The notes: a model not told the origin generated them from the sequence alone. 33,056 nt of DNA from Acidimicrobiia bacterium (GCA_026985095.1 JALSQW010000057.1:1-33056), one strand, 5' to 3'; positions 1-7,690 are shown, counted from the stretch's first letter. Program-made: numbers and translations.

Positions 1-4
1 AACC

Positions 5-117
5 CGAACACGACCCCCTTGACACACACACACACCATCCGCATACTGATCGTAGTGACGGGGACACCCACCGTGTCAGGGGGGATGAGGAAGGAGACGG
101 ACCGACATGATCCGACG
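5..117 (+). repeat. 113-bp promoter block, copy 1
   Basis: This block recurs at 2596-2708 with an offset of 2591 and only two mismatches (60/2651 and 84/2675). It carries the promoter, the leader, the ribosome binding site and the first codons (M-I-R) of the gene behind it. The similarity stops at 117, just inside the coding region, so the same control block drives two different secreted proteins. Confidence 0.95.
19..77 (+). promoter_or_regulatory. Sigma70-type promoter with a dyad in the leader
   Basis: A consensus -35 TTGACA at 19-24 and a -10 CATACT at 42-47 are separated by exactly 17 bases, much of them a CA repeat. The start of transcription should fall near 54. Downstream, GACAC (63-67) and GTGTC (73-77) form an inverted repeat with a 5-base spacer, a possible operator. 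The ribosome site AAGGAG is at 91-96, 10 bases before the ATG at 107. Confidence 0.8.
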
Positions 118-472
118 TACCGTGAGGTCGCTTGGGGTCGTCCTCGTGCTGGCCCTGCTGGTCGGCGTCGCCGTTCCCGCCGGCGCGACCGGTTCGCATT
201 CCAAGAACAAGTCGTTCTCCACCTGCGCGTACACGATCGAGCACTGGAACCAGAGCGGAGCGGTGGCCTCCACAGTTGGGAACAGCAACTGCTACTGGGC
301 CACCGTCCGGCTCCAGTACCGCTTCGGTGGAGACACGCTGTGGACCTCGACGAAGAAGTGGTACCAGGCGGTGTGGGCGTGGGGTCCAAGCACATCGACG
401 ACGCTCAAGAGCCGGCATCAGATCCAGCACTACCCGTCGTACCAGTGGTCATCGACCTGTACCCTGTACTGA
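107..472 (+). CDS. Small secreted aromatic-rich protein, module 1
   Basis: This 121-residue protein has a clear signal peptide: basic MIRRTVR, a hydrophobic core, and a likely cut after A27 (PAGA). The mature part of about 94 residues starts with a Lys/Ser stretch, has three cysteines (about 40, 63 and 118), many Trp and Tyr, and ends in TCTLY. It resembles the products at 1487 and 2698 in layout, with a Lys-containing start, an early Cys and an aromatic end. I recognise no known family. The lipoprotein gene follows after one base, so the two are translationally coupled. A bacteriocin-like or envelope-acting role is possible but only inferred. The start is supported by the SD and by the conserved block around it. 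Confidence 0.8.
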   Translation: MIRRTVRSLGVVLVLALLVGVAVPAGATGSHSKNKSFSTCAYTIEHWNQSGAVASTVGNSNCYWATVRLQYRFGGDTLWTSTKKWYQAVWAWGPSTSTTLKSRHQIQHYPSYQWSSTCTLY

Positions 473-473
473 T

Positions 474-1193
474 ATGACGACGCGACCGGTCGCGCAGCGG
501 CGCTGGATCGTCGGGTTCGCCGCCGTAGCGATCGTGGCCGCGGCGTGTCGGGGACCGGCCCCTACGGCCGGACCGACCGGCGCCGCCACGGTGGACGACC
601 CTCCCGCGGTGAGCACCACGGACCCGACCATCTCGTCGACGGGCCCCGACACCGGAAGCTTCCCGTCGACGACACTGCCGGCGGCGGTGCTGCCCCCACC
701 CGCCGACGGGAAAACCGGAGAAGGCTCCCGGGAGTTGTCCGACTACCAGGCCGCCGTCCTCGCCGACGGGGAGGTCACCTTCGAAGAGTACGAGGCCTCG
801 GTGCTGGCAACCATCGCGTGCCTCCAAGACGCCGGGATCCGCACCACGGGTCCGAAGCCGGCCCACGCCGGACGGATGCTTTCGTGGACGCTGAGCCCGC
901 CGGAGGGCATGGCCGACGAGGAGTTCTTCGCCGCCGAGTCGGCGTGCCTGACCGAGTACCTGTCGGTGGTGGAGACAGCCTGGCTGGAGGCGGCGCGTCC
1001 CGACGAGCAGACCATGGTGGAGTACGCCGCCAAGCTCACCGAGTGTCTCAACGACGCCGGTGCCGAACTCGAAGCCGGCCTCACCGAGATCGAGATCCTC
1101 AAGGTCGTTCTCGGCGGCAACTCCCCCTGGGACATCCCCCGGAGCAGACTGGAACCCTGCCTGACGGCCTACGCGTTCAGCTTCGCTGGCTGA
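474..1193 (+). CDS. Four-cysteine lipoprotein, module 1
   Basis: This 239-residue lipoprotein has a signal peptide with a lipobox ending VAAAC, placing the lipidated Cys at residue 25. A Pro/Thr/Ser-rich tether reaches to about residue 85. The folded part then opens with LADGEVTFEEYE, which resembles the second half of an EF-hand loop, and carries four cysteines (in IACL, SACL, TECL and EPCL). The same four positions and the ADGEVTF motif recur in the lipoprotein at 3126, and the four cysteines recur in the one at 1894, so the three are paralogues, probably with two disulfides each. The ATG follows the upstream stop by one base. The function is unknown; a surface partner or immunity protein for the secreted protein before it is a guess from the pairing. 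Confidence 0.8.
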   Translation: MTTRPVAQRRWIVGFAAVAIVAAACRGPAPTAGPTGAATVDDPPAVSTTDPTISSTGPDTGSFPSTTLPAAVLPPPADGKTGEGSRELSDYQAAVLADGEVTFEEYEASVLATIACLQDAGIRTTGPKPAHAGRMLSWTLSPPEGMADEEFFAAESACLTEYLSVVETAWLEAARPDEQTMVEYAAKLTECLNDAGAELEAGLTEIEILKVVLGGNSPWDIPRSRLEPCLTAYAFSFAG

Positions 1194-1486
1194 GTCCCGC
1201 CCTGACATGCCGCGCTGCGTCCACGGTGGTGGTGCAGGCAGGGCTGAGGATCCTTCCCAATCGGTGGTCGCCGCGTCAGCCTCACGAACAGCTGTGCAGG
1301 CGACCGTGAGGAGCAACGCGGTGATCACCGACAGGATGGACGGCTCGTCGTCGTGGTCGCGGTGGATGCTCGTCTCGATCGTGACGGTGACGGCGTGCAC
1401 CAGCCTTCGCCGTCGTCTTGCGAGCGGCGGTCTTCTTGGCGGCCTCGTCTTGGTGGTGACGGTGACGGCGTGCACCAGCCCGTCTG
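1194..1486 (+). other. Intergenic stretch with decayed sequence
   Basis: No convincing gene lies here. Module 2 should begin with a promoter block like those at 5 and 2596, but none can be found. The stretch holds a 25-bp direct repeat (next entry). Both strands show short lipobox-like translations (VTVTAC on plus, LLLTVAC on minus) without good starts. I read it as eroded or rearranged DNA. Confidence 0.5.
1381..1480. repeat. 25-bp direct repeat, two exact copies
   Basis: Identical 25-base copies at 1381-1405 and 1456-1480 begin GTGACGGTGACGG and end GCACCAGCC, with 50 bases between them. The second copy ends six bases before the GTG start of the module 2 secreted protein and places two TGA codons in that reading frame. 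A slippage or deletion event here may have removed the original 5' end of that gene. Confidence 0.85.
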
Positions 1487-1897
1487 GTGGCCATCCTCGT
1501 GTTCGCCTTCGGCGTGGCCCTTCCCGCGCTCGGGCACGGCACGTCCAAGCAGGCCGACCAGTGTTCCGACTACCTCGGCGGCGAGCATTCCGGTCGCAAC
1601 GGGCGGCATCAGGCCAACGCGTTTCCCTGGGGGGTGGATCCGAAGAATCCCTGTGAGTCGTACCGTGCCCGAGTGATCACCACCAACTGGAACACGGGAG
1701 CGGCGTGGGGATGGTGGAACCACCCGAACACGACGACCTACAGCGGCTGGTACGCGGACTGGCGACGTACGCTCGTCAGAGATCCCGAGGGCCGTCCGTA
1801 CGTCGTGTGCGCCTCCGGTCGCGGCCTCGATCAGGCCTCCAACGGCAGCACCAGAGCCTATGGTTGGGCCTCGAAGTGCCGCTACTACCAAGGGTGA
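1487..1897 (+). CDS. Small secreted aromatic-rich protein, module 2
   Basis: This protein has 136 residues from a GTG start. The hydrophobic core (AILVFAFGVALPALG) is intact, but the usual basic N-terminus is missing at this start. The seven codons just upstream, in frame, read RRAPARL before TGA stops, so the true start seems to have been lost or displaced. The mature part has four cysteines, is rich in Trp, Tyr and Asn, and ends CRYYQG, like its relatives at 107 and 2698. I see no ribosome site and no promoter block. The lipoprotein gene overlaps its stop by four bases (GTGA). It may be poorly expressed or silent; the family function is unknown. Confidence 0.6.
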   Translation: MAILVFAFGVALPALGHGTSKQADQCSDYLGGEHSGRNGRHQANAFPWGVDPKNPCESYRARVITTNWNTGAAWGWWNHPNTTTYSGWYADWRRTLVRDPEGRPYVVCASGRGLDQASNGSTRAYGWASKCRYYQG

Positions 1898-2429
1898 TCC
1901 GCACCCACGGCACCCGCTTCCTGTGGAGAGCCCATCTCCTCGGGCTCGCCGCGGCCGCCGCCGTGATCGTGGCAGCATGTGCGTGGGGTACCGAACCACC
2001 GGTCGGCGACCTGTACGCCCGATACGAACAGGCTGTCTTCGCCACCGTCTCGTGCATGCGGGAACGAGGCATCGACGTCGAAGCCGGCCTCGAGCTCGAC
2101 GGCATCAGCTACGGGTTCACCATCTCGTCGGAGGCACTCCCGGGGGCGAGGATGCGCTGGTGTCGGCCCATGCGGCGATGCGGGAATGCGAGGAGGCGAC
2201 CGGCTTGGCGAAGATGTCCGCCGAGTACGCTCAGGTGACGAACCCGACCGAAGCCGAGTACCGGCACGTCGTGCTCGACTGTGCCGACGAGCTCGGCATC
2301 GCCGTCGATCCGCAGGCCACCACCGACGATCTCTACGCGGCTGCCTACCGAGGAGACGAACCCCGCTACGTCGAGTGCATCTTCACCCGATTCGGCGACA
2401 TCGCCCGCCGCAACCTGCGCCAACGCTGA
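1894..2429 (+). pseudogene. Four-cysteine lipoprotein, module 2, frameshifted
   Basis: The gene starts with GTG overlapping the previous stop. It has a signal peptide with lipobox VIVAAC (lipid Cys at residue 29), then YEQAVFATVSCMRERGI, matching the paralogues at 474 and 3126. The frame breaks in a G run at 2142-2146. Before it the protein reads SSEALPG in one frame; after it GEDALVSAHAAM continues in the -1 frame up to the stop at 2427-2429. The joined product keeps all four family cysteines (SCM, ECE, DCA, ECI). One missing G, a sequencing error, or a real -1 ribosomal shift at C-CCG-GGG (2139-2145) would each explain it. It lacks the long Pro/Thr tether of its relatives. Confidence 0.65.
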
Positions 2430-2559
2430 GCCCCGCATCCAGGGACGGTTCGTGGCCTGTGTCCGGGCTGGCGGGATCGACGCCGTCGACTACCCCGACG
2501 CCTACCGGGCCGCCGACGACGCCCTGCGGCGCCGCTGCTGGAGCGACGCCGCCCGCTGA
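2430..2559 (+). pseudogene. Remnant of a fourth lipoprotein copy (C-terminal end)
   Basis: After the stop at 2429, another frame reads FVACVRAGGIDAVDYPDAYR and then ADDALRRRCW up to a stop at 2557-2559. This aligns with the ends of the lipoproteins, for example LQTCLEANGVEV and LGC of the one at 3126, including both cysteines. It has no start of its own. I take it as the tail of a deleted paralogue. Alternatively it is an extra C-terminal segment of the gene before it, cut off by a second frameshift. Confidence 0.5.
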
Positions 2560-2595
2560 CCGTCCCCCGGGCGGGCATCGGCCCGACCCCGACCG

Positions 2596-2708
2596 CGAAC
2601 ACGACCCCCTTGACACACACACACACCATCCGCATACTGATCGTAGTGACCGGGACACCCACCGTGTCAGGGGGCATGAGGAAGGAGACGGACCGACATG
2701 ATCCGACG
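2596..2708 (+). repeat. 113-bp promoter block, copy 2
   Basis: Second copy of the block at 5-117, with two substitutions. It ends after the first codons of the gene at 2698; from 2709 on the two coding sequences differ. Confidence 0.95.
2610..2668 (+). promoter_or_regulatory. Sigma70-type promoter with a dyad, copy 2
   Basis: TTGACA at 2610-2615, a 17-base spacer and CATACT at 2633-2638. The GACAC/GTGTC inverted repeat lies at 2654-2658 and 2664-2668. The promoter hexamers and the dyad are unchanged from copy 1; a mismatch (2651) lies just outside the dyad. This suggests that both are under selection. Confidence 0.8.
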
Positions 2709-3078
2709 GTTCCGGATCAGGCACCTCGGTGTCACGGGTGCCGCAATCGGCGTCCTCATGCTGGCAACAGCCGTCGCCGCGTTCGCCTACACCAAGTCCA
2801 AGACGTGGACCATCAATGCCTGCACCTTCAAGGGCTCGTATGACTACAACCGTCCGTACTTCGAGGGGGTGAGCTCCAACCTCGACGCCGCGGACTGTCG
2901 GTCGGTCAAGGCGGCGATCAGGTACTGGGAGTCCGGCTACGGATATCGGTACAAGGAGACCGGATGGATGTCCGCCGGAGGGGGCACCTCGACCGACAGC
3001 GCCGCGTTCATCCACTACTCGAGGCACCGGGCTCGACCCTTCCAGTACCCGACGACCCCCTGGAAATACCTGTACTAG
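2698..3078 (+). CDS. Small secreted aromatic-rich protein, module 3
   Basis: This 126-residue protein has a signal peptide MIRRFRIR plus a hydrophobic core, cut probably after A30 (AAFA). The mature part begins YTKSKTWTINAC. It has two cysteines (about 42 and 67), many Tyr, Trp and Arg, and ends PWKYLY. Only the first few residues match the module 1 protein closely, but the pattern (Lys-rich start, Cys, S-x-N then Cys, aromatic C-terminus) is shared. An SD (AAGGAG) stands 10 bases before the ATG inside the duplicated block. A lipoprotein gene follows 47 bases later. The family is unknown to me. Confidence 0.8.
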   Translation: MIRRFRIRHLGVTGAAIGVLMLATAVAAFAYTKSKTWTINACTFKGSYDYNRPYFEGVSSNLDAADCRSVKAAIRYWESGYGYRYKETGWMSAGGGTSTDSAAFIHYSRHRARPFQYPTTPWKYLY

Positions 3079-3125
3079 GCATCGACGGTGCGTACCGTCG
3101 CGGGAGCCGGGATCGAGGTGGATGG

Positions 3126-3803
3126 GTGCAGGTGACCATAAGGGGCGTTGCGATGATGGTTGTGGTCGCCGTGCTGGTCGCCGGGTGCCGAACGGGAGGC
3201 GTCGGTGGAACCGACGGCCGGGGCGCCACGTCGGTGACGGCGGCCGGGAATCTCCCGCCGGCGGAGGGTTCCTCTCCGTCGACGACACCGACCGTCTCCA
3301 CATCGCTCCGACAGGCGACGGCTCCTCGACTCCCCGAGGATCTCCCCGAATACCAGTCAGGGATCCTCGCCGACGGCGAGGTCACCTTCGCCGAGTACGA
3401 GCAGGCGGTGTTGGCGACCGTGGAGTGTCTGCGGGACCGGGGGGTCGAGGTCGTCGGCCCCTACCGGGAATCCGACGCCGGCCGCTACGGAGGGTCGCTG
3501 TTCGTCATCGGCCCCAGGGACCTGTCCCGCTTCTACCTGTGGGACCTTCGCTCCCCGACCCTCGAAGGCATCGAGGAAGCCGAAGCAGCCAACGAGGAAT
3601 GCCGCCGCGAGTACTTCGACTGGGTCGAGATCGTCTATGCCGACTCGAACGAGCCCACCCAAGCCGAATGGGCCGACTGGTACCGGCGACTCCAGACGTG
3701 CCTGGAAGCCAACGGCGTGGAGGTCCCCGCCGACGACCCGACGACCCTCAACCTGCTCGCCACCGAACACCGCACACTCGGCTGCCCCGACGACTCCAAC
3801 TGA
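3126..3803 (+). CDS. Four-cysteine lipoprotein, module 3
   Basis: This lipoprotein has 225 residues. The GTG at 3126 is chosen because GAGGTGG precedes it; GTG 3132 and ATG 3153 are alternatives. The lipobox is LVAGC, with the lipid Cys near residue 21, followed by a Ser/Thr/Pro tether. The folded part has LADGEVTFAEYEQAVLATVE, almost the same as in the lipoprotein at 474, and four cysteines in VECL, EECR, QTCL and LGCP. It is acidic and probably displayed on the outer face of the membrane. As in module 1 it sits directly behind a small secreted protein under the shared promoter, so the pair is likely co-expressed. The role is unknown. Confidence 0.8.
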   Translation: MQVTIRGVAMMVVVAVLVAGCRTGGVGGTDGRGATSVTAAGNLPPAEGSSPSTTPTVSTSLRQATAPRLPEDLPEYQSGILADGEVTFAEYEQAVLATVECLRDRGVEVVGPYRESDAGRYGGSLFVIGPRDLSRFYLWDLRSPTLEGIEEAEAANEECRREYFDWVEIVYADSNEPTQAEWADWYRRLQTCLEANGVEVPADDPTTLNLLATEHRTLGCPDDSN

Positions 3804-6523: not shown

Positions 6524-7690
6524 ATGCAGACCGCCGTGATCGTCGACGCCGTGCGTACCCCCCTGGGGAAGCGCAACGGCATGCTCGAAGACTGGCATCC
6601 CGTCGACCTGTCGTCCGAAACGCTGCGCGCCCTCGTCGACCGGACCGGCATCGACCCAGGGCTCATCGACGACGTGATCATGGGATGCGTCTCCCAGGTC
6701 GGCGAACAGACCTTCAACGTCGGTCGGAACGCGGCACTCGCCGCCGGATGGCCCGAGACGGTGCCCGGCGTCACCATCGACCGACAGTGCGGCTCTTCTC
6801 AACAGTCGGTCCACTTCGCCGCCCAGGGGGTCATGGCGGGCGTCTACGACGTCGCCGTCGCCGCCGGGGTCGAATCGATGACCCGCGTCCCGATGGGCAT
6901 CAGCTTCTCCCAAGGTCCAGGCAAGCCCTTCGGTGAGCGGATGCGGGCCCGCTACAACGATGGGCTCGTCCCTCAGGGGATCTCGGCCGAGATGATCGCC
7001 GACAAGTGGGGCATCCCACGCGAGGAGCTCGACGCGTACGCCTACGACTCGCACATGCGGGCCGCCCGCGCCACCGACGAGGGACGCTTCGACCGGGAGA
7101 TCGTGCCCATCGAGGTGAAACTCGACGACGGCACCGTCGAGACCGTCTCCCGCGACGAGGGGATCCGCCCGACCACCACCCCCGAGATCCTCGCCGGCCT
7201 ACGACCGGTCTTCAAGGACGACGGGGTCGTCACCGCGGGGAACTCGTCGCAGATCACCGACGGAGCCGCCGCGCTCCTCATCATGAGCGAGGACAAGGCC
7301 AACGAGTTGGGTCTGAGACCCCGCGCCCGGTTCGTCTCGTTCGCTCTCGCCGGCACCGACCCGGTCCTCATGCTCACCGGCCCGATCCCGGCCACCTTCA
7401 AGGCGCTCGAGCGCGCCGGCCTCACCGTCGACGACATCGACCTGTTCGAGATCAACGAGGCCTTCGCGTCGGTCATCGGCGCCTGGCGACGGGAAACCGG
7501 CGTGCCGTGGGAGAAGGTGAACGTCAACGGCGGCGCCATCGCCCTCGGACACCCCCTCGGAGCCACCGGCGCTCGCCTCATGACCACGCTGCTCAACGAG
7601 CTCGAGCGCTCGGGAGGCCGCTACGGGCTGCAGGCGATCTGCGAAGGTGGCGGCACCGCCAACGCCACCATCATCGAACGGCTCGACTGA
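6524..7690 (+). CDS. Acetyl-CoA acyltransferase (thiolase)
   Basis: This 388-residue thiolase either condenses two acyl-CoA units or cleaves a 3-ketoacyl-CoA. The acyl-accepting cysteine is C89 in DRQCGSSQQSVH. The second half carries NEAFASV, GGAIALGHPLGATGAR (catalytic His) and CEGGGTANATI (second catalytic Cys). The length is normal. A strong SD (GAGGAGGG) stands seven bases before the ATG, and the gene starts only 25 bases after tRNA-Ala. No other beta-oxidation gene is nearby, so degradation versus synthesis cannot be decided. The fadA/phaA names are not separable from sequence alone. Confidence 0.92.
   Translation: MQTAVIVDAVRTPLGKRNGMLEDWHPVDLSSETLRALVDRTGIDPGLIDDVIMGCVSQVGEQTFNVGRNAALAAGWPETVPGVTIDRQCGSSQQSVHFAAQGVMAGVYDVAVAAGVESMTRVPMGISFSQGPGKPFGERMRARYNDGLVPQGISAEMIADKWGIPREELDAYAYDSHMRAARATDEGRFDREIVPIEVKLDDGTVETVSRDEGIRPTTTPEILAGLRPVFKDDGVVTAGNSSQITDGAAALLIMSEDKANELGLRPRARFVSFALAGTDPVLMLTGPIPATFKALERAGLTVDDIDLFEINEAFASVIGAWRRETGVPWEKVNVNGGAIALGHPLGATGARLMTTLLNELERSGGRYGLQAICEGGGTANATIIERLD

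Follow-up and report, generated by a model that had tools for sequence, protein, structure and literature searches.

Tandem modules of a secreted protein and a lipoprotein

The window, by which we mean the whole stretch of DNA analysed (33,056 nucleotides; GCA_026985095.1, JALSQW010000057.1:1-33056), is the entire contig C57 of an Acidimicrobiia bacterium. Its start (positions 1-3803) carries three tandem modules, each pairing a gene for a small secreted protein (S) with one for a lipoprotein (LIP) (Table 1). An earlier note, made from the sequence alone, had described such an array, and it is present: modules 1 and 3 are intact S/LIP pairs and module 2 is a cassette decayed in both genes, because LIP2 is frameshifted, S2 lacks both the leader promoter and a charged n-region, and a LIP2 homologue from another genome (L084:3-917) stays in frame across the stretch in which LIP2 is disrupted. 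The coupling of partners by overlap or short gap is likewise evident, with 1 nt between S1 and LIP1, a GTGA overlap of S2 and LIP2 at 1894-1897, and LIP3 following S3, an alternative later start of LIP3 being possible at 3153. Position 1 is a contig end within the repeated leader, and the array may therefore extend leftwards. The decayed stretch ahead of S2 also holds a 37-nt direct repeat (GACGGTGACGGCGTGCACCAGCC, within 1326-1480), and a related stretch lies inverted in contig C16.

Table 1. Features at the start of the window.
Feature	Position	Strand	Remarks
Shared leader copy 1, truncated by contig start	2-117	+	TTGACA-17-CATACT sigma70-like promoter at 19-47
S1, small secreted protein	107-472	+	121 aa; signal peptide MIRRTVRSLGVVLVLALLVGVAVPAGA
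LIP1, four-cysteine lipoprotein	474-1193	+	239 aa; lipobox AAAC
S2, degenerate secreted partner	1487-1897	+	lacks upstream leader and charged n-region
LIP2, frameshifted lipoprotein	1894-2429	+	frame switch at ~2110-2160
LIP-type 3' remnant (..RFVACVRAGGIDAVDYPDAYRAADDALRRRCW..), other type	2425-2559	+	belongs to ~245-bp repeated block
Shared leader copy 2	2592-2708	+	TTGACA-17-CATACT promoter at 2610-2638
S3, small secreted protein	2698-3078	+	126 aa; low-confidence all-beta model; orthologue in G048
LIP3, four-cysteine lipoprotein	3126-3803	+	225 aa; core modelled at confidence >90

The four conserved cysteines and the ADGEVTF-x-EYE motif first noticed in these lipoproteins are real and family-wide: C101, C159, C192 and C220 (LIP3 numbering) are invariant, and ILADGEVTF-x-EYE is kept across the LIP family. 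The S proteins have two invariant cysteines and a mature length of ~95-100 residues; their start had been called Lys-rich, but the n-region is Arg-rich instead (MIRR), and S2 has none. The GC-by-codon-position pattern, together with dN/dS values of 0.1-0.3, supports S and LIP being real genes.

A profile search of the same genome returned 22 LIP matches (~20 LIP copies), several of them clustered on contigs C16 and C69, and the paralogues were collected region by region. In this genome a small, Cys-containing, aromatic-rich secreted protein is encoded directly 5' of nearly every intact LIP; three cassettes (C8, C69c and C16c) combine a broken S with an intact LIP, and the converse is seen in none. 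The C69 cassette cluster (L025:3358-5509) also includes a gene for a secreted protein of 185 aa, with genes for an ECF sigma factor and a CU044_5270/anti-sigma-like protein after it.

Recurrence of the pair and the surrounding operon

LIP was surveyed at three taxonomic levels, in 50 genomes from the family, 395 from the class and 396 from the phylum, and its distribution is patchy (26/395 class genomes). S lies directly upstream of 39 of 57 strong LIPs, in many genomes; 32 of these cases were found by a strict automatic rule and seven by eye, two of the seven being S fragments only. Ten of the other 18 LIPs stand behind another LIP and eight have no visible partner. Under the strict rule, an S-like frame occurs at 1/157 other genes and at 6/55 sites downstream of LIPs. 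Adjacent pairs thus recur well beyond the window, as the earlier note had anticipated (39/57 vs a background of 1/157, with 8/57 LIPs lacking a visible S). Two S types used as class-wide queries gave 14 matches, every one at loci of the family; most of the 14 came from the query sets, and the result shows an absence of solitary S, not independent pairing. A pattern scan of named genomes with a narrow alignment gave six loci. An intact S-LIP pair is carried by a Dehalococcoidia MAG, Cellulomonas bogoriensis (L108:3854-5233) has two LIPs in tandem with no visible secreted partner, and LIP3 as a query against plasmids and phages gave no match.

The transporter genes and the five-gene parent operon are located outside the window. 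In several taxonomic families the order S, LIP, MacA-like adaptor, MacB-like ATPase and FtsX-like permease is conserved and collinear. It is found in this genome on C64 (48.9-53 kb) and C25, and also in G071, G083, G087, G186, G373 and others; in G316 and G084 it is visible as far as the ATPase in the stretch examined. An adaptor profile gave 17 matches, spread over 12 of the 296 genomes of the class, each of them a LIP carrier (hypergeometric P ~1e-14), and nearly all of the matches lie at most ~3 kb from a LIP. We conclude that the S-LIP cassette belongs to a five-gene operon, of which the window modules are satellite copies.

The adaptor matches RND_mfp (TIGR01730) under cutoff (E=8e-4) and, in one copy, PG_binding_1 above cutoff. 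The ATPase is of the MacB/FtsE/LolD type, with PF00005 above cutoff in the C8 copy; for the C64 and C30 copies the best NCBIfam models are LolD, FtsE, L_ocin_972_ABC and MacB, all under their equivalog cutoffs. The permease match is weak (PF02687, 20.2 and 21.5 bits vs a cutoff of 25.5). MacB-family transporters also go by the term mechanotransmitter. The composition of the operon would accommodate a surface or cargo system, in which LIP and the transporter fold, anchor or release S, and S itself has a structural or binding role such as adhesion, wall binding or protease inhibition. The peptidoglycan-binding domain of the adaptor and the constant upstream position and co-inheritance of S speak for such a role, and tandem LIPs could serve as alternative anchors, but S, with a Sec signal peptide of its own, can do without an ABC exporter, a structural part would rarely come in more than ten distinct versions per genome, as S does, and a binding role finds no supporting fold match; we consider this explanation improbable.

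Related operons extend further. A more distant LIP relative that is common in the family is encoded with the same set of transporter genes but with no S, and a FAQCMRDHGVDM-type actinobacterial lipoprotein is a distant LIP homologue (hhalign 98.7%). Lipoproteins with FAQCMRDHGVDMEDP-type repeats, also distant LIP relatives, are encoded in operons with adaptor and ATPase at L101:2-5276, L099 and L102, and that at L101 adds a permease and a two-component system.

Shared leader, co-inheritance and selection

The two leader copies in the window are 98% identical, and a promoter scan found 3 sites vs 0.3 expected. The ~111-bp leader stands ahead of cassettes in seven copies (two on C57, one on C69, two on C8 and two on C16), with a partial copy at C30. 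Several cassettes are preceded by a ~245-bp block made up of a 3'-terminal piece of one LIP type, intergenic DNA and the leader; copies of this block are 88-98% identical, with 94-98% for blocks on C16 and C69. This arrangement suggests that cassettes multiply through duplication and recombination at the leader, which would also explain the contig breaks.

TTGACA and CATACT lie 17 bp apart in the window, 19 bp apart on C69 and 13 bp apart in both C8 copies, and a spacer of 15 bp also occurs among the copies. The lengths differ because a variable (CA)n tract sits between the -35 and -10 hexamers (window 19-47 and 2610-2638; L025:127-268; L051:3020-3156 and 7517-7652; L024:2715-2856). A (CA)n tract in this position is the layout of phase-variable promoters, and it is possible that the leader is such a promoter, the differences being among copies within one assembly. 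Folding of the leader RNA gave a stability no greater than that of shuffled sequences. On C8 at ~107-111 kb (L051:3122-6837) the leader precedes a different operon, which seems to share the cassette promoter; its products are a secreted protein of 185 aa, a pair of membrane proteins and an ABC ATPase.

Across 41 pairs, similarity among the S proteins correlates with similarity among their LIPs when the two matrices are compared (Mantel r=0.69, p=0.0002), and close S relatives usually neighbour the closest LIP; the S3 orthologue in G048 (L083:7786-8178) lies beside a LIP matching LIP3. For orthologous types compared between genomes, the identities of S vs LIP are 69 v 58-61%, 60 v 54-55%, 60 v 43-46% and 42 v 34%; in most cases S equals or exceeds LIP in conservation, the reverse holding for a few pairs. 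NG86 estimates of dN/dS are ~0.1-0.3 for S and LIP alike, a sign of purifying selection. The diversifying selection that the earlier note proposed is not borne out by these values, nor by S being usually the better-conserved partner between genomes; its idea of a toxin/immunity-type pairing survives as a cognate partnership, which fits the co-inheritance, and falls as regards diversifying selection. By these comparisons S and LIP are discrete conserved types rather than products of ongoing divergence.

That small lipoproteins and short open reading frames with no relation to each other stand together by chance is hardly credible. Spurious open reading frames are plentiful in high-GC genomes, but the conservation refutes this explanation: the upstream frequency of 39/57 vs 1/157, the recurrence of the gene order across several families and in one further phylum, the Mantel p of 0.0002 and the dN/dS of 0.1-0.3 all stand against it.

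Possible function and known self-protection systems

Neither S nor LIP had a match above cutoff in Pfam, NCBIfam or PADLOC, and profiles of both against PDB sequences gave nothing meaningful; with LIP and E up to 10, only designed or unrelated PDB proteins appeared and no homology to NisI/SpaI was seen. S3 was modelled as an all-beta protein (pLDDT 64), and Foldseek with VIA-align found no significant match for it, the best scores (Z ~7) being to unrelated generic beta sandwiches such as monobodies and arrestins. Formosin D scored Z 6.4 against the S3 model, level with the generic beta sandwiches and so uninterpretable, and the name formosin led in the literature to unrelated compounds only. 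The core of the LIP3 model (confidence >90) consists of helices and two strands and gave no significant match by the same methods (Z 4.4 at most). Sequence searches of S against bacteriocin families were negative; PF09683 (lactococcin 972) matched none of S1-S3 at E up to 10 and nothing elsewhere in the genome, and membership in the lactococcin 972 group was rejected for this genome on that ground. The C8 107-kb operon, whose gene content recalls a lactococcin 972 locus, was also rejected as one, its membrane protein resembling that of the group weakly in a single comparison (E=0.02). The earlier impression that no described family fits is upheld in these databases, and the five-gene S-LIP-transporter system is undescribed.

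Sequence evidence establishes that S and LIP are paired and co-inherited, that the operon is collinear and that, in this genome, cassettes share a promoter leader. As to function, we suggest, with a probability of about one half, that S is a Sec-exported bacteriocin-like protein and that LIP and the transporter protect the producer much as NisI/NisFEG or YknWXYZ do. S would be exported by its Sec signal peptide, fold extracellularly as a small disulfide-bonded beta protein and act on the envelope of neighbouring cells, while the cognate LIP, tethered to the outer face of the membrane, would bind its own S type. With a Sec signal of its own, S does not require the transporter for export, and the adaptor/ABC unit would instead clear S from the producer's membrane, without translocation from the cytosol. 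Additional S-LIP cassettes and LIP-only copies would widen the range of toxin types made or tolerated, one transporter being shared, with labour divided as between NisI and NisFEG, or as in the protection that YknWXYZ gives from SDP. The LIP-only copies, the cassettes with broken S and intact LIP, the patchy spread and the multiple types per genome fit a toxin with self-protection. We count against it the purifying selection on both genes, unlike many toxin-immunity pairs, the failure of S to match any bacteriocin family, the 8/57 LIPs with no visible S, the weak S model (pLDDT 64) and one tandem duplicate in which S is 82% identical and LIP 45%.

Envelope sensing or signalling is a serious rival to the toxin reading, because a two-component system accompanies a related operon and a sigma-factor-like gene adjoins that of a protein with a LIP-like domain. 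S would here be an extracellular ligand or reporter and LIP its receptor, with the MacB-like unit converting binding to a signal or mechanical response, and no killing would be involved. The LIP-like domain in question belongs to a membrane protein encoded directly 3' of the sigma-factor-like gene (L094:1960-3069), a sensor-like arrangement; the two-component system adjoins the related LIP-transporter operon at L101, an ECF sigma gene lies within the C69 cluster, and both S and LIP are under purifying selection. MacB-family transporters are, moreover, known mechanotransmitters (PMC5985334). We nevertheless think a sensing role rather unlikely, as no regulator adjoins the S-containing operons examined, and the repertoire in many copies, with LIP-only copies and pseudogenes among them, and its patchy distribution are more conflict-like.

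If the bacteriocin-like reading is true, Acidimicrobiia and their relatives gain an interference system with a modular repertoire of toxins and self-protection, a large uncharacterised actinobacterial lipoprotein family is placed as transporter partners, and Gram-positive MacAB-like transporters gain a genetically linked native substrate. The substrates of MacAB-like transporters are mostly unknown, and the S-LIP pair makes the question directly testable. More tentatively, and with less confidence than in the reading itself, one may imagine a new actinobacterial bacteriocin-like class, in which matched toxin/lipoprotein-immunity cassettes multiply and decay around one MacAB-like protective transporter and the (CA)n spacing could switch several cassettes on or off.

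Among the systems with which this one can be compared, the actinobacterial LIP-MacAB-like operons of the FAQCMRDHGVDM-type share the order LIP, adaptor, ATPase and permease, but unlike the operon described here they have no S gene, and one (L101) adjoins a two-component system. The lactococcin 972 group has a small exported bacteriocin beside genes for a putative immunity ABC transporter (PMC4055356); a small exported protein with an ABC transporter encoded nearby is common to both, whereas S, with its two invariant cysteines, does not match PF09683, its low-confidence all-beta model shows no clear match to the beta sandwich of 2lgn, and LIP and the adaptor are without counterpart in that group. 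In lantibiotic self-protection by NisI and NisFEG (LanI/LanFEG) a lipoprotein binds the producer's own bacteriocin and an ABC transporter clears the bacteriocin from the membrane (PMC8538875). Here too a lipid-anchored protein with a lipobox is encoded beside an exported partner and an ABC transporter, but S is Sec-exported, ~95-100 residues long when mature and not a modified peptide, LIP has another, cysteine-rich helical fold according to its model, and the transporter has a MacA-like adaptor. In Bacillus, the MacA-like adaptor, ATPase and FtsX/MacB-like permease of YknWXYZ protect against the species' own secreted, disulfide-bonded SDP toxin (PMC4887032). This Gram-positive unit resembles the transporter here in the latter's predicted composition; it has no lipoprotein and its toxin is encoded elsewhere, whereas here S and LIP are part of the operon and multiply as cassettes.
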